From Bacteroidota bacterium (GTDB lineage: Bacteria > Bacteroidota > Bacteroidia > UKL13-3), in contig CANGPW010000009.1 of the NCBI GenBank assembly GCA_947456185.1, forward strand, positions 1 to 53,616: 53,616 bases of DNA. The letters are read 5' to 3'. The notes under the pieces are model-generated. The model was not told where the DNA came from, did no database searches, and saw only the letters and a list, made by a program, of their open reading frames with translations. How positions within the stretch are numbered: position 1 is the stretch's first letter; each line of letters opens with the position of its first letter. Both the position numbers and the translations under genes were made by a program. This document shows positions 27,873-35,304 of the stretch, one piece after another.

Positions 27873-30800
27873 TTATTCTTTAATAATTTTTTTAATAAAG
27901 AATTCGTTGTCTGTTGATAATTTTAGTAAATAAATTCCTTTTGTTAAAGAGTTAGTATTTACCGAAACTTCATTCAATTGTTTGTTGTCAATGGTTTTAG
28001 AAATTAATACTTTTCCTGTTAAATCCACTATTTCTATTGTTGCAGTATTACTCGATAAAGTAGGCAATTGAACAGAAATATTTTCATAACAAGGATTTGG
28101 ATAAGCTACTAATTTTTTAGTTAATTGATTTTGAACTCCCATTCCGTAACCTAAAGTAAAATTGGTTATGATGGAATCAGTATTTAAGGTAAAAGGACCG
28201 GCTACTGCGTTAACTCTCCATTTTAATGAAAGCGTTTGGTTAGTTTGAACTCCCAAAGAAATTAATATACTTCTTATTTTACCAAATGTAATACCCAAAG
28301 AAGTATCTATTCCTGAAGTTTTAGAAAGTAAGCTAGCAAGTGGGTTTCGGAAGTTTCCACCTAAAGTGTCTATTGATAAAGTGTAAAGAACTGGCCCAAC
28401 CGATGAACTGATTGGATCAAGAATTGACGCAGTCCAATTGGTAAACATAGTTTGGTTAGTGTCGCCAGATATTGTTACATTGTTATTGGTAACAGGAGTT
28501 AGCACTTGAAAACTAGTTAGGGCATTGTAAGGTAATATATCATTGGCATTTCTTGGTAATATTTGATAGCCGTTAAAAGTATACGGAGCAACAGTGCTAG
28601 TTGATGTTTGAGCACCAAATCCTTTTATATGGAAGTATGTAGTAGAAGGGAAAGGAGTGTTTGCCAATAAACTTGAGTTGTAAATTCTAATAGCAGCGGT
28701 ATCGTTATTAGCAGTAATAATATTATAAGTTTGACCCGCTGTCCAATTTATTCCATTTGGTCTAGTAACAAATTTTACTGCATTTAAACGTACTAAATCG
28801 TTTTCAGTGTTTTCCGCTAAACGGGTTGTAAGCTTTGGATTAGTTAAGGTTTTACCGGTAGCTAAAACAGCTAAGCTATCAATATTTCCTATTACTAATA
28901 AACCTCTATTGGTAGATATTACTCCAAATAATTGAATGCTATCACCTTCTACAGGTATATAACCAAACGTACTTGCAGTGTTTGCCACAGTAATTCCACC
29001 TGTATTATCGCGCAATACAAATATTAATCCACCTTGCATAGCTGTTCTCTGATTAACGCCATAAACAATTCCATGTAATGACACTCTTACATTTATTGAA
29101 TCAGGAACACCAGTTGTGGTATTTGTATTTCCTATTTGAGCTATGGTATATGTAGTTGGCGGTGGAGGATTTGGTAGTGCTGTTCCATTAGCTGTAGCAC
29201 TGGTTGTTGAATAAGTTGAATCCGCATCTCTTACCACATAAATTAATACATGGTAATTGGTGTAATTATTAATGGCTGTAATATTTACAAAATTGGTATC
29301 GCCTTTATACACGCATTTAGCAGCAGTATCATTTTGGTAACGAGAGCTGATAGCTGAACTAAAATTTGCATTTGCATTAATAGTAGTAACTGTTCTGCTT
29401 GGTGTACCTTCTGTTATTAAGGTACTAGCTTTAACAAAAACCAAAGTAGTTAGTGTAGTATTGTTATAATTTGAAGGTTTTGTCCAACTAATTTTAGTAC
29501 TAGTAGTAGTTATTCCAGCAACAGTTGTTCCCGAAACATTAGTAGGAGGCAAGCCTCTAGTAGTTCCACTTGCAGTTATGGCATTTGAATACAATGAATC
29601 AGCATCACTCACCACATATATTAAAGCATAATAAAGCGAAGAAGCATTTAAATTACTTGCAGTAACAAAAGTTGAATCACCTTTATAAATACAATAAGCG
29701 TTGGTATCACCTTGGTATATGGTACCTAAACCAAAAACACTATTTCCATTATAATTAGCTGGGTTTAAATTAGGGAAACCTTGTATTACTGCACTTAATG
29801 GTTTTATAAACACTAAGGTAGTAAAGTTTGCATTTTTGTAACTGGTATCTTTTGTCCATGTTAAATTAGCAGTAGCTGGAGTATATGAAACTACAGTCAC
29901 TGATTTTACATTGATTGGTCCAGCACTGGCAGTAATTCCAGTTGTAGTCACTACAGTTGAATAATTTGAATCAACATCATTAATTGCATATGCAGAAATA
30001 TAATAATTAGTGCCTGAATTTAATCCTACTATGTTTACAAAAGTGCTATCACCTTTGTAAATGCAACGTGCACTTGCATCAAGTGATAAAGTAGTGCCAA
30101 TTCCACTAAAATTTGAATCGGCTGTAATTAATATTGGATTGGTATTTGGTGTTCCTGCTGTTATAGCCGAAATTGCTTTAGCAAATACTACCATGGTATT
30201 ATTGGCATTAACATAACCTGTAGGTTTTACCCAACTTACTCTGGCACTTGTTTGTCCAGTGGAAGTAAATAATAAGTTTGTTACTGTACGTGGTGCCGTA
30301 CTAGATGTAGTAACGCTTGCAGTAGTTGCTGTTGAATAAACACTGTCGGTGTTTTTAACTACTAAAACTGCTACTTGGTATAATGTATTTTGGTTTAAGC
30401 CTGAAATTAATACTGAGTTAGTATCACCTTTGAAAATACATTTAGCACTTCCATCGTTTTGGAAATAAGAGTTTGCTAATGTAAAATCAGTACTTGCAGT
30501 ATATGCGTTTGCCGATAAAGAAGGCGTGCCAATAGTTATTGGGTTAACGGCTTTTACAAATACCAATGTAGTATAATTACTATCAATATAATTGCTATTT
30601 TTTGTCCATGATATTCTGGTGGATGAAGTGGTAGTAGTAGTAAATGCAATGGTAAATGCCGAAGGCGAGTTTGATACAGTTGCCGCATTTAAAACATTCC
30701 AAGTATTAGCACTTCTTATTCCATCAACCAATACGCGAGGTGCATTTGTTGCAGATCCTTGGCGCAATGCCAAACGTCCTAATGTAGTAGCATCGGCATT

Positions 30801-31418
30801 AGTTCCGCCTATGGTAGCCACCGTAGCTAATGTAGGTTCAGTAGTTGGAAAACCACTTGTAAAATTATAAACCATTACTGAATCGTTTAATGTTCCAATA
30901 TTATATTGGTATTTGATTACCAATAACGAGGTAGTATTTAAAGGAAAACTATCATTGCTATATATAGCTGCTTCGTTTCCTTTTGAAATACCTATTTTGT
31001 AAAATCCAATACCAGCTGCTTTTGCATATAACCTACCTGTATAAGTAGTGGCAGAGTTTTGAGGTAAATAAGCAAAGAAATAATCACCAGCTGTAGTTAC
31101 TTTACTCACGTTAATCATCATGGAAGTATAAAGGTTTCCGGTGGTAACATTATTGAATAAATCGCGGTAAATGTCTTGCCCTGCAGTGTCAACTTTAGCG
31201 GCATTACCTATGGCCGATAGGTTATAACCAGTATAAGTTAAGCCAGTATTTGATACTTTAATTTGAGGAGTAGATGTTGTTTGTATTTGTAACCAATTAT
31301 TGGATGTTAATGCCGAATCTGTGGCATAGTCAAAGTTTTCGGTAATTAATTGTTGTGATTGAGCTGAGTATTTAATACTCAATAACAATAACAACATCAT
31401 CGTAATTTTTATTTTCAT
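27873..31418 (-). CDS. Large secreted T9SS protein with four Fn3-like modules and an OB-fold-like domain
   Basis: An 1,181-residue protein. The signal peptide (1 to about 21) is followed by a beta-sandwich-like N-terminal domain (about 22-245). Four Fn3-like modules of about 130 residues (about 250-770) each contain one cysteine in the signature [KRY]C[IV][FY]KGD[TS] and a (K/D)DADSxYST strand. A Pro-rich hinge leads to a domain resembling the DUF5689/OB-fold found in Bacteroidota surface proteins (about 785-905, with [20 protein letters not shown]). The end is a type A T9SS sorting domain ([26 protein letters not shown]). The product should be surface-exposed or released. A nuclease- or sugar-related role is sometimes associated with this OB fold, but no catalytic residues are evident. 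Confidence 0.88.
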
Positions 31419-31784: not shown

Positions 31785-32933
31785 GTGACATATGCCCAAT
31801 TCAAGCTTTTACTAATTTTCTGTTTCTATGGATTTATTTCTAAAGGCCAAGCTGTGGTTGTAAGTGAATATTTTAATGCAACTTCACCCAATGATGAATG
31901 GACAGAATTATTGGTAATTCAAGACAATGTGGATATGCGTAATTGGTCTTTAAGAGATAATAATGATGATCAAGACGATTGGCAAACACCAATAACTTTT
32001 GAAAATATTTCATTTTGGAACCACATGAGAGCGGGAACCATAATAATAATTTGGCACCGTGCTGCATCTACAGGTATTAATTTAGATATAGATAAATCAG
32101 ATGGATATATAGAGTTACATGCACAATATTCAGGTTATTTTAGTGGTGGATCATTTCCAAATAGTACTTTAAATATTGCTGGAGGTTCTAGTGATGGTGA
32201 TTTGGTCCAACTAAGAGACTCCTCCACTAGTCATATTCATGCGTTGGGACATAAAAGTTCTCCAGGTTTATCATTTACATCAATTATTCAATATAGACTT
32301 AACCATGCAAGTTCTATAAGTAGTGGTGATGCAGTGTATGTTTGTCCGGGTAGTAGTATTAGCGATTATGACGGTGGAAGTGGAACAACGAAAACAGCAA
32401 AGAGTAGTTCCCTTTTTTCAAAAGGGCTTCCCAATGTATCAATTAGTAATCCTGTAACTAACCAAACCTATTGGCGCAGCATTCGTCAGCCATCTTTTCC
32501 ATCAGCTACATTAACTGGTTCTTATAATACAGGAACAGCTAGCATTGATTTATCATGGAATGCTGCCACTGATCCATATCCATTAGATAGTTCTGTGGGT
32601 TATATAATTTTAAGAAATACATCCTCTACTTTTACAGACCCTGTTGATAGCATTTCATACTTAAATGGAAGTATTATAGGTTCAGCTACGGTTTTAACAC
32701 ATGTTTTTACTTCTCAAACTTTAAGTTATAACGATAATACCATTTTAAACTGTGGTTCAACTTATTATTACAAGGTATATGCCTTTAGATACTTTTGTGC
32801 TAATGCCAAAACTGTAAGTCAAAGCTGCAGTGCTATAAACAAAGCAAGAGGAAGAGCCTATAATGAAACTGGGACGAATATAGCAACTGTTTCATTACCG
32901 TTACCAACAACAAATTCCATCAATTCCTATTAA
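31785..32933 (+). CDS. Secreted protein with lamin-tail-like and Fn3-like domains and a conserved C-terminal tail
   Basis: A 382-residue protein. The GTG at 31785 is the only start giving a full signal peptide (FKLLLIFCFYGFISKGQA); an in-frame stop lies two codons upstream. The N-terminal part (about 24-165) has the look of a lamin-tail domain (VVVSEYFNATSPNDEWTELL, NWSLRDNN). Residues about 235-355 look Fn3-like (LSWNAATDPYPLDSSVGYII, YYYKVYAFRYFC). It ends PLPTTNSINSY, matching the tails of the next two proteins without gaps. No standard T9SS sorting domain is present. It is first in a four-gene run with 31-bp, 14-bp and overlapping junctions. It is probably a subunit of a surface structure; this is inference. 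Confidence 0.85.
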   Translation: MTYAQFKLLLIFCFYGFISKGQAVVVSEYFNATSPNDEWTELLVIQDNVDMRNWSLRDNNDDQDDWQTPITFENISFWNHMRAGTIIIIWHRAASTGINLDIDKSDGYIELHAQYSGYFSGGSFPNSTLNIAGGSSDGDLVQLRDSSTSHIHALGHKSSPGLSFTSIIQYRLNHASSISSGDAVYVCPGSSISDYDGGSGTTKTAKSSSLFSKGLPNVSISNPVTNQTYWRSIRQPSFPSATLTGSYNTGTASIDLSWNAATDPYPLDSSVGYIILRNTSSTFTDPVDSISYLNGSIIGSATVLTHVFTSQTLSYNDNTILNCGSTYYYKVYAFRYFCANAKTVSQSCSAINKARGRAYNETGTNIATVSLPLPTTNSINSY

Positions 32934-32964
32934 AACCTTTAGAATTAATTAAAAAAACACACAT

Positions 32965-33732
32965 ATGAAACACCAAACAATTAAAAATTACTTATTGATG
33001 CTATTGTTCCTTCTTGGATTAGGCATTTCTCAAATGAATGCTCAGAATCAAAAAGTTTGGACAGGAACATCCAAATTATTTGGGATAAATGGTGCTACCA
33101 ATCCTACTTCTTCTGTTATATGGAATTTGGGACTAGGAACTGCTAGTACTTCTTCAAAAACTGATAGTACAGTATCTGCTAGGGCAATTTTCACAAGAGT
33201 AAATTGGAATAATCCAACCGCTGCAATGATAATAGATACTATAAAAGTGAGTGAATCAGTAAGTGGATGTCCTAGTGTAATTGTTTCAAAATTGGTAGAA
33301 GTTTATCCTTTGCCAATTTGTTCTATAGGTAGTAACCAAACGCTTTGTTATGGAGTTTCGCCTGTATCTTTTACGTTAAATATTACCAACTATTCAGACA
33401 TTACAGGGATAAAAGATTTTCCTATTACTTACGAAGTAAGAGCAGGATCAGTAACGGGAACAGCACTTGGAGGAACATCAACTGGGAGTACTACTTTATC
33501 AGCAGCCAGCACTACCATTAATCCTTCAACCTGGCCAAGTATGGCTGCAGGAACTTCTTATTATTTTGTAATTACCTCTTTTGGTTCAAGCATTTCGGCA
33601 ACAGGAAATAATCCCGCTCCTGGTAATATTAGTTTAACTGGAATTGGTGCCAATGCATATGCAGTTTTACCTACCAATAATACTTATATAATTAGTCCAG
33701 TTATTACTGCTCCATCTATCATAGCTTATTAA
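32965..33732 (+). CDS. Secreted Ig/PKD-like protein with the conserved C-terminal tail (second in operon)
   Basis: A 255-residue protein with a signal peptide (1 to about 26, ending QMNAQ). An Ig/PKD-like module (about 27-115) includes SVIWNLGLG, ATVSARAIFTRVNW-type strands, DTIKVSESVSGCPS and a closing VEVYPLP. A second beta-rich domain spans about 115-240. It ends PVITAPSIIAY, aligning with PLPTTNSINSY of the gene before and PKPTPSAIKHY of the gene after. The first module resembles those of the next two proteins, so the genes are probably related by duplication. No T9SS domain is seen. The function is unknown. Confidence 0.85.
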   Translation: MKHQTIKNYLLMLLFLLGLGISQMNAQNQKVWTGTSKLFGINGATNPTSSVIWNLGLGTASTSSKTDSTVSARAIFTRVNWNNPTAAMIIDTIKVSESVSGCPSVIVSKLVEVYPLPICSIGSNQTLCYGVSPVSFTLNITNYSDITGIKDFPITYEVRAGSVTGTALGGTSTGSTTLSAASTTINPSTWPSMAAGTSYYFVITSFGSSISATGNNPAPGNISLTGIGANAYAVLPTNNTYIISPVITAPSIIAY

Positions 33733-33746
33733 TTTAAAACAAATAC

Positions 33747-34385
33747 ATGAAATACTTCTTTAGTTTATTATTTGTTTTTTTTATTACTGCCTTTTTAAGA
33801 ACACAGGCACAATCAACAGTTAGCCCCGATACGGTTTGTGCTGGGTCTATCAATAAAATTTTTGACGTGGATCCTACACCAGGTTCAAGTTATGTATGGT
33901 TATTGAGAAATGGAAGTACATATGGAACTATTTCAACCATTGCTGGTCGTTCAGATAGTATCCGCATTAACTTTGGTGCATCTGCGGGAATTGATACCTT
34001 AAAACTTGTAGAAATTGGTCCTTCAGGTTGTTTAAGCGATACCGTTAAAATGGCTATTGTGATTATGCCTGCAACCACTGCTACCATAGTTGGAACAGAT
34101 TCTATTTGTGTCAATAATGTATTTTCAGCAAACCGTTTAAGAATTGTATTTACAGGTACTTCGCCTTGGAATGTAACTTATACCGATGGTACAACGCCTG
34201 TTACTATTTCATCAATAATCAGTAGCCCCTATTATTTAGTTTCACCTGTGTACTCAGTTACAGGAGTTAAAAACTACACACTTGTATCGGCAAATAGCAA
34301 TGGCAGCTGCCCAGCTTCATTAAGTGGTTCAGCAAGCGTTACTGTATTTCCTAAACCAACTCCTTCAGCTATTAAACATTATTAA
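33747..34385 (+). CDS. Secreted Ig/PKD-like protein with the conserved C-terminal tail (third in operon)
   Basis: A 212-residue protein with a signal peptide (1 to about 21, ending RTQAQ). The PKD/Ig-like module (about 22-110) begins STVSPDTVCAGS and continues SYVWLLRNGSTYG, DSIRINFG, DTLKLVEIGPSGCLSDT. A second Ig-like module with a Cys pair follows (about 112-200; SICVNNVF and NGSCPAS). It ends FPKPTPSAIKHY. Its stop overlaps the next start (TAATG), which indicates translational coupling and a fixed stoichiometry with the CHU_C protein. Confidence 0.86.
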   Translation: MKYFFSLLFVFFITAFLRTQAQSTVSPDTVCAGSINKIFDVDPTPGSSYVWLLRNGSTYGTISTIAGRSDSIRINFGASAGIDTLKLVEIGPSGCLSDTVKMAIVIMPATTATIVGTDSICVNNVFSANRLRIVFTGTSPWNVTYTDGTTPVTISSIISSPYYLVSPVYSVTGVKNYTLVSANSNGSCPASLSGSASVTVFPKPTPSAIKHY

Positions 34386-34981
34386 TGAAAATAAAGGCAG
34401 TCATATTTTTACTGCTTTTACTTGCTAAACTGAATTGGTTAAATGCGCAAGTAATAGACACTGCAGTTATAAACATGCAGCAGGTTCGTTATGGAATTGC
34501 ATTCAATGTGGGTTCAACTTATGAATGGCAAGTACAAGACGGTTCAATAGTATCCGGTGCATTTACCAATGAAATATATGTGAATTGGGGAAGTGTGCCC
34601 GGATTAAAACGGATTGCTGTAGTGGAAACAAATGTCACAGGCTGCGAAAGTGATACAAATATTGCCTTTGTTTTATTGGTTACTGATACCTTAACCGATT
34701 CCTTAATTTGTATCATGCCCAATGCTTTTTCGCCTAACGGTGATGGATTGAATGATGTGTTTGGTTTTACTTTTCCAATAAGTGATTTGAATGAATTTAA
34801 ATTAGCTATTTATAACAGGTGGGGCGATGCTGTATTTATGTCTAATGATCCGTTAATGCCGTGGGATGGAACTACAAATGGAAACCCTTGTGCCATGGAT
34901 GTGTATGTATGGAAGTTAGAAATTAGCAGAAAACGATACAGGTCAATTTCAAAACATGGTACTTTTACTTTGTTACGTTAG
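34385..34981 (+). CDS. T9SS type B (CHU_C / gliding-motility-associated C-terminal) secreted protein, last in operon
   Basis: A 198-residue protein with a signal peptide (1-21, ending LNAQ). One Ig/PKD-like module (about 22-105) is homologous to those of the two preceding proteins: STYEWQVQDGS, NEIYVNWGSVPG, VVETNVTGCESDT. The CHU_C domain (about 108-198) carries PNAFSPNGDGLNDVF, YNRWGDAVF, PWDGTTNG and VYVWKLE. This type B domain sends proteins through T9SS, often followed by SprF-family-dependent surface attachment. It lacks the tail shared by the other three proteins and may provide the cell-attached base of an assembly. No SprF/PorP gene is adjacent. Confidence 0.9.
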   Translation: MKIKAVIFLLLLLAKLNWLNAQVIDTAVINMQQVRYGIAFNVGSTYEWQVQDGSIVSGAFTNEIYVNWGSVPGLKRIAVVETNVTGCESDTNIAFVLLVTDTLTDSLICIMPNAFSPNGDGLNDVFGFTFPISDLNEFKLAIYNRWGDAVFMSNDPLMPWDGTTNGNPCAMDVYVWKLEISRKRYRSISKHGTFTLLR

Positions 34982-34995
34982 TTCAATTTAACTCC

Positions 34996-35120
34996 GAGCT
35001 TGTTCGGTAGTTATCGGTACAGCCTACATTTCGACAAGCTCAATGACCGGGAATTTGAGTTTTCACTCGCACATTGCTTATGCCAAAATTTGCTGTCACC
35101 CTGAGCTTGTCGAAGGGCAT
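34996..35120. repeat. REP/BIME-like dispersed palindromic repeat, copy 1
   Basis: TTCGACAAGCTCA (35030-35042) and TGAGCTTGTCGAA (35102-35114) are perfect inverted copies. GAGCTTGT (34996-35003) and ACAAGCTC (35034-35041) form a nested pair. The segments ATTTCGACAAGCTCAATGAC and GTCACCCTGAGC recur at 41350-41443. Such elements are dispersed non-coding repeats. ORFs over them reading HPELVEG are artefacts. Confidence 0.85.
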
Positions 35121-35141
35121 CACGTAAAACTAAAAAGCATA

Positions 35142-35174
35142 AAAAAAACTCCAACTATTTGTTGGAGTTTTTTT
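35142..35174. terminator. Rho-independent terminator
   Basis: A perfect 14-bp stem, AAAAAAACTCCAAC (35142-35155) / GTTGGAGTTTTTTT (35161-35174), has a 5-nt loop. It lies just downstream of the decayed minus-strand T9SS gene end and also downstream of the plus-strand operon, so it can serve either. Confidence 0.92.
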
Positions 35175-35184
35175 GAAAATAAAT

Positions 35185-35304
35185 TTATTTCACTAAAACT
35201 TGTTTCGTTATTTCACCGGTTGAGGTATTAATTTTCAATACATATACACCAGCTGATAACGATAAATTGATTGGGATTAGTTGTTCTCCATTTTGTATCA
35301 GTAT
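35185..35304 (-). pseudogene. Remnant of a T9SS type A sorting domain
   Basis: On the minus strand the frame reads LIQNGEQLIPINLSLSAGVY followed by VLKINTSTGEITKQVLVK and a stop. This is the final strands of a type A T9SS sorting domain (GVYVLKI... KQVLVK). A stop lies immediately upstream, no start exists, and the DUF2752 gene ends 5 bp away. The 3' end of a T9SS-cargo gene and its terminator have survived a deletion. Confidence 0.75.

Follow-up and report, generated by a model that had tools for sequence, protein, structure and literature searches.

Within a window of 53,616 nucleotides (nt) from a Bacteroidota bacterium (GenBank assembly GCA_947456185.1, contig CANGPW010000009.1, positions 1 to 53,616 of the forward strand), four adjacent genes (g1 to g4, positions 31785 to 34981) were examined as an operon of secreted proteins. 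The operon probably encodes a heteromeric surface chain built by head-to-tail strand donation, with g4 as its anchor through a CHU_C domain of the type IX secretion system (T9SS). The proteins of g1, g2 and g3 end in short, related tails, such tail operons are associated with CHU_C genes, and the tail corresponds to an in-chain linker and first strand that has been cut between genes. The window derives from a 2.6 Mb draft genome in 127 contigs.

The four open reading frames (ORFs) were confirmed at the coordinates originally predicted, with g3 and g4 overlapping in TAATG, and the tails PLPTTNSINSY, PVITAPSIIAY and PKPTPSAIKHY sit, as had been claimed, at the exact C-termini of g1, g2 and g3. 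The secreted g1 protein (31785..32933, plus strand, GTG start, 382 aa) has a signal peptide followed by a lamin-tail-like region, its mature N-terminus is probably QAVVVSEYF, and its tail (32898..32930, plus strand) occupies the 11 residues before the stop. The g2 protein (32965..33732, plus strand, 255 aa) is secreted, probably matures at the Q encoded at 33043, and carries its tail at the ORF C-terminus (33697..33729, plus strand). The g3 protein (33747..34385, plus strand, 212 aa), also secreted, has two PKD/Ig-like domains and probably starts, when mature, at the Q at 33810 (QSTVSPDTVC); its tail (34350..34382, plus strand) is the proposed strand donor to g4. The CHU_C anchor g4 (34385..34981, plus strand, 198 aa) probably matures at the Q at 34448 (QVIDTAV) and consists of a PKD_6 N-domain and then CHU_C at about 34712-34936. 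Signal peptides were called by a simple script, without a dedicated predictor, and cleavage sites were placed by the Bacteroidetes Q-rule (PMC5837995, PMC10653852).

The original assignment of the fourth protein to CHU_C T9SS type B held, with both models over their cut-offs: against Pfam, g4 matched CHU_C (PF13585) at 8.6e-16 (58.3 bits, cut-off 27) and PKD_6 at 2e-5, and against NCBIfam it matched TIGR04131 at 7.3e-14 (51.7 bits, cut-off 35). By domain, g4 belongs to T9SS type B cargo and g1 to g3 do not; in the Pfam and NCBIfam scans, no CHU_C, TIGR04131 or type A domain was found in g1, g2 or g3 at E up to 1. The body of g1 had been described as lamin-tail/Fn3; a lamin-tail (LTD) match was present under the gathering score (8.1e-5; 23.4 vs 34.3 bits), and Fn3 gave no match.

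The tails have a counterpart inside longer chains. Internal matches of a tail profile are linkers that join Ig-like repeats in large proteins (e.g. VTVNPLPTPNAGADKSICAGS), and the closest of these cis linkers, NPLPVTSPISGQ-DSVC and PLPVTSVINGP-DTVC, are followed by a domain of the type with which the CHU_C anchors start. Single-chain relatives carry the cis form PLPVTSxIxGP-DTVC; in the operons, P.PTTSxI stands at the C-terminus of one protein, often in the form I-x-H-[DNY], and its mature successor begins Q-x-[IV]-D-T-x-C or similar, without that stretch, the junction from the tail isoleucine to the cysteine being, by eye, two to three residues longer than in cis. As expected of a donor strand, the end segment of the neighbour corresponds to the strand that is missing, cis linkers and tails sharing P.P.TS.I. 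Among the collected loci, a P...[IVL] linker stood directly before 30 of 41 distinct cis copies of the anchor-type domain, and the [IVL]-x-H of the tails before 0 of 41. For copies started by a signal peptide, a tail gene ended at most 520 nt upstream in 44 of 52 distinct cases, most loci having been collected around tails. The remaining 8 were six g3-type proteins, of which those in L144, L222, L223 and L225 are first in their operon and those in L236 and L242 have no upstream tail gene in the available stretch, and two copies of G065 (L183, and L186, where only 507 nt upstream are present).

A likeness to cis linkers would also be expected if the tails were leftovers of a tandem-repeat protein that had been split, with no present function, and neighbouring genes were in frame at many of the loci viewed. 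The H of I-x-H, absent from 41 of 41 cis linkers, nevertheless recurs at C-termini in several families, the tail is conserved over distant families, and g1 carries one though its body is not of the repeat type, which makes such a relic quite unlikely.

In the strand-donation arrangement that we propose, the C-terminus of each upstream protein would supply a linker between domains together with the first strand (strand A) of a PKD/Ig-like domain not its own, and the protein that follows, once cleaved by the Q-rule, would begin with a PKD/Ig-like domain whose strand A is wholly or partly missing. This place would be taken by the tail, that of protein n completing the N-terminal domain of protein n+1, which gives the chain order g1->g2->g3->g4, in which g1 is likely the outermost subunit. 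Because the T9SS type B (CHU_C) signal is confined to g4 among the four, g4 would serve as anchor; g1 to g3, which have no C-terminal domain (CTD), would be coupled to it by their tails, either for export as a complex or for assembly at the surface; the CTD-less subunits could cross the outer membrane in complex with the anchor or by a route opened by the tail itself. Chain order, export route and fibre formation are what we infer from this gene anatomy. The original interpretation was partly supported. Among the roles suggested for the tail (export, processing or polymerisation), a donated strand on a CHU_C base fitted best; nothing turned up in favour of a peptidase site, for which no test was made. 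The motif by which the tail had been defined proved too narrow, its core being P and, some residues on, I-x-[H/A/S/P/K/T]-[Y/D/N].

The tails recur in related genomes. Of 64 family genomes, 15 gave a g2 match (E <= 0.001), the own genome being one of them, and in the regions examined these matches lie in operons of short secreted proteins. Homologues of g1, g2 and g3 have C-termini that are alike (...VFPKPNPGAIKHY, ...VRPAITTPTIQAY, ...NPLPNTNSIFSY and ...SQPILAN, with variants such as ...TITPTN), g1 homologues in the collected regions also carrying tails, and the terminal I and Y were invariant in an alignment of 14 g3-type proteins. The original prediction had named two observations that would count against it, homologues without the tail and tails not concentrated near CHU_C genes. 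For the former, g2 and g3 homologues with a visible C-terminus end in the tail or in a variant (..NPIIAN, ..TITPTN). For the latter, the tail profile was compared with 395 genomes of the class, of which 36 matched at E <= 0.001, and 30 loci were examined; 15 exact C-terminal tails were found, in seven families (f1, f3, f5, f27, f38, f56, f58), with endings such as PTTSPIFHD, PTTSPIFHN, PTTSQIFH, VTPSIQHN and PTLTPIKH. In 13 of these 15, a CHU_C gene confirmed with Pfam follows directly or after one intervening gene; the two exceptions were L140, where the contig ends first, and L226, where none follows.

A reading of the tail as a mere internal repeat motif was not supported: in 15 of the 30 loci the match runs right up to the stop codon (distance 0), the remaining 15 matches being internal or spurious. 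In a scan of named genomes, 18 loci were returned, namely 17 operons already collected and one weak partial match (L102), all on contigs of metagenome-assembled genomes under the names Bacteroidetes, Bacteroidota, Bacteroidia, Chitinophagaceae or 'Chitinophaga pinensis'. Neighbour genes of related operons, picked for looking like PorP_SprF, matched PorP_SprF in 7 of 7 tested.

The acceptor side was examined with 18 anchor N-domains, for which 226 of 395 genomes matched at E <= 1e-8, and the 30 loci listed were examined. Signal-peptide-started proteins were found at 18 of these, 17 anchors and one g3-type protein (L242). An upstream tail gene lay 65-241 nt away in 17 of 17 anchors; the g3-type protein of L242 had no upstream tail gene, and the second gene of L242 is a further new anchor, with an upstream tail. 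The ranking of the anchors is partly circular, because the query profile itself contained 12 of the 17; the others were L233, L236, L239, L243 and L244, only L236 and L239 being new. The remaining 12 loci were not signal-peptide-started, and a cis linker was clear by eye in 7 (L246, L248, L249, L250, L253, L254, L256).

CHU_C was above cut-off in 23 of 23 anchors scanned, over all operons. PKD_6 matched at the N-terminus of 17 of these, and the match began at profile position 12-13 in 16 of them and at position 17 in g4 of the window; in two cis domains the PKD_6 match started at positions 4 and 5. An acceptor should lack the strand in its mature chain, and the PKD_6 start positions agree with this, only partly for g3 of the window. 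The N-domain of g3 is homologous to the anchor N-domain (hhalign E 1e-23).

Two single-chain AlphaFold2 read-through models were made from in-frame genes, with glycine in place of the stop and the signal peptide kept as a linker. In the g2-g3 model of L026 (predicted local distance difference test, pLDDT, 76; predicted template modelling score, pTM, 0.52), the g2 tail was predicted as a short strand (226-228; block 221-230 pLDDT 70) and the free g3 tail as coil (431-437, pLDDT 59). The tail-anchor model of L192, from an alignment of 5 sequences, had a pLDDT of 82 and a pTM of 0.67, with an anchor strand at 116-121; its tail was ordered with a short predicted strand F84-H85, block 71-80 having a pLDDT of 91 and block 81-90, linker included, 67. 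By Foldseek, the best E-values for the L192 model were titin fragments (template modelling score, TM, about 0.3), and the best TM among the 50 matches listed were tandem domains of GhpA (9flu, 0.57 at 4.3 A; 9fly, 0.58). For the L026 model, GhpA fragments ranked first (TM 0.38-0.42, root-mean-square deviation 8-10 A). The tandem GhpA fit is partly expected, because both domains are in one chain.

Several observations weigh against strand donation onto a CHU_C anchor. Within the window, g3 still has some strand A residues of its own (QSTVSPDTVC, with PKD_6 matched from position 6), the g2 N-domain is only weakly homologous to the anchor domain (hhalign probability 9.5, E 0.0034), and the g1->g2 link is weak. 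Among the 23 anchors, 6 had no N-terminal PKD_6 match (L142, L143, L144, L192, L224, L242), and when a tail was prefixed to four anchor domains there was no real gain in the PKD_6 score (35.3->34.6, 30.4->30.4, 28.9->29.1, 28.4->29.0). We infer physical insertion of the strand from read-through models assessed without coordinates, and in these models the retained signal-peptide linker itself ties the tail to the next domain. No CHU_C gene follows the tail gene of L226, and none was found by motif, with no Pfam scan made, in eight regions from the same genus that contain tail genes (L025-L030, L032, L041). In family f38, a tail protein of 643-756 aa is encoded behind the CHU_C gene (L144 5323-7593, L222 5302-7233, L225 9730-11670), which fits the proposed chain badly; with this third tail gene downstream of CHU_C, gene order need not equal chain order. 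No PorP/SprF gene was found beside the window operon, and a genome-wide scan for one was not made.

As separate observations on the eight same-genus regions, each holds two to four tail genes, and in L026, L028, L029, L032 and L041 the last of these encodes a further g3-type protein (..TITINTY).

The specificity of the tail was assessed in the window and in its own genome, and the tails exceed what chance would give. The exact pattern of the original prediction was present in 9 of 642 closed genes of >=90 aa (window plus collected loci of >9 kb), a proportion that is not a genome-wide rate because the loci were collected around such operons. All 9 are tail genes of such operons, and 6 are distinct (some loci overlap). 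Against the own 2.6 Mb genome at E <= 10, the tail profile, in which the three operon tails were themselves included, gave five matches, those three tails plus two weak, incomplete matches (E 0.29 and 0.79) that end before the model does. Among 1341 window segments, the g3 tail scored highest with a profile made from 12 tails of other families (9.9 bits at E 0.043, over model positions 1-17 of 20), and the g1 and g2 tails were not among the seven best matches listed. With a profile of 14 same-family tails from other operons, which included g3 homologues, g3 came first (1.1e-9) and g1 second (0.026), and the g2 tail was not among the seven matches listed. By these leave-out profiles the g3 tail stands on its own evidence, and the g1 and g2 tails rest on the operon and on their homologues.

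Alternatively, the translocon or a shuttle could recognise the tail directly, as a short signal for export by the T9SS or otherwise across the outer membrane. This would suit the Sec signal peptide of tail proteins, the lack of a CTD match in g1 to g3, the placement of the tail at the very C-terminus, its recurring I-x-H-x end, and the several same-genus regions in which tail genes occur but a CHU_C gene was not found by motif. The same stretch, however, equals the in-chain linker of ordinary Ig-like repeats and accompanies a strand-deficient N-terminus in the neighbouring protein, and strong profile matches in the own genome were confined to the operon, unlike those of a general sorting signal. 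Known T9SS signals are, moreover, described as C-terminal domain families A, B and C (PMC10202324). A short export signal is thus unlikely, and a role of the tail as a genome-wide sorting signal was unsupported here. The own genome also held 20 CHU_C matches at E <= 0.001 (L145-L164), 13 of them over the cut-off, with strong tail matches confined to the operon.

The exact C-terminal position and recurring ending would likewise suit a processing or ligation site, at which the tail is trimmed or covalently joined to the next subunit; no sortase or peptidase was noticed in the operons, for which no dedicated scan was made. A pyroglutamate N-terminus has no free amine for head-to-tail ligation. 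Under the Q-rule, the N-terminal Q of the partner is expected as pyroglutamate (PMC5837995, PMC10653852), which argues against covalent ligation. We regard a processing or ligation site as highly improbable.

Strand donation between subunits has precedents. In chaperone-usher pili, an incomplete Ig-like fold is completed by a strand of the neighbour, the donor being an N-terminal extension, with a chaperone and an usher; the arrangement proposed here is similar in that a neighbour's strand would complete an Ig-like fold and differs in that the donor would be a C-terminal tail. Type V fimbriae (Mfa1/FimA, Porphyromonas gingivalis) are likewise a surface polymer of beta-sandwich subunits, in which a C-terminal segment is a candidate donor strand, the last six residues are needed for polymerisation, and the first strand is removed by proteases on polymerisation (PMC5789003). 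In the tail operons, by contrast, the mature domain begins without its first strand, and a T9SS type B domain is carried by the base; no fimbrillin or Mfa family match was found in the four proteins in the Pfam and NCBIfam scans. On the best reading, by analogy, the tail system would work like these donor-strand polymers.

With the type B cargo of SprB-SprF and PG1035-PorP, the operons share a CHU_C domain in the last protein and, in several related operons, PorP/SprF genes that follow; type B proteins are described as associating with PorP-like proteins (PMC9143113, PMC12618676). T9SS cargo is described as needing its own C-terminal domain (PMC11285876), and the SprB-SprF and PG1035-PorP cargo is described as carrying one, whereas CTD-less chains are here proposed to attach by their tails. 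The Aureispira grappling hook protein GhpA (9flp and related) is matched at its C-terminal end by g4 (1.1e-7) and gave the best structural fits of the models; in GhpA the matched repeats are in one chain, whereas the comparable linkers here are cut between genes. No description of such tails was found in the literature searched, of which parts were available and in which subscription papers and preprints were outside the scope.

Around the operon, a divergent neighbour on the minus strand (window 27873-31418) encodes an 1181-aa Fn3-type protein with a T9SS type A domain. Behind the operon, inverted pieces (TTCGACAAGCTCA / TGAGCTTGTCGAA) at 35020-35130 resemble a dispersed repeat. An A/T-rich hairpin at 35142..35174 (strand unset; minus in the scan listing) is a possible terminator, for which the evidence is weak, the scan having given 3 sites vs 2.3 expected and the plus-strand T-run lying inside the stem. 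On the minus strand at about 35185-35295, an open stretch reading ...GEQLIPINLSLSAGVYVLKINTSTGEITKQVLVK* resembles the end of a T9SS type A sorting domain whose gene is absent, and is perhaps a gene remnant.

Beyond the window, a tentative and somewhat doubtful extension is that secreted proteins without a T9SS signal are carried to the surface because their tail completes the N-domain of a CHU_C anchor or of a subunit linked to it, so that one type B signal would serve an ordered chain, as a widespread and undescribed route. Environmental Bacteroidota may build such a surface structure. Were CTD-less proteins coupled to a single CHU_C anchor in this way, secreted Bacteroidota proteins that lack a known signal would have a possible explanation, and tails could be paired with strand-deficient N-termini to deduce subunit order from operons.

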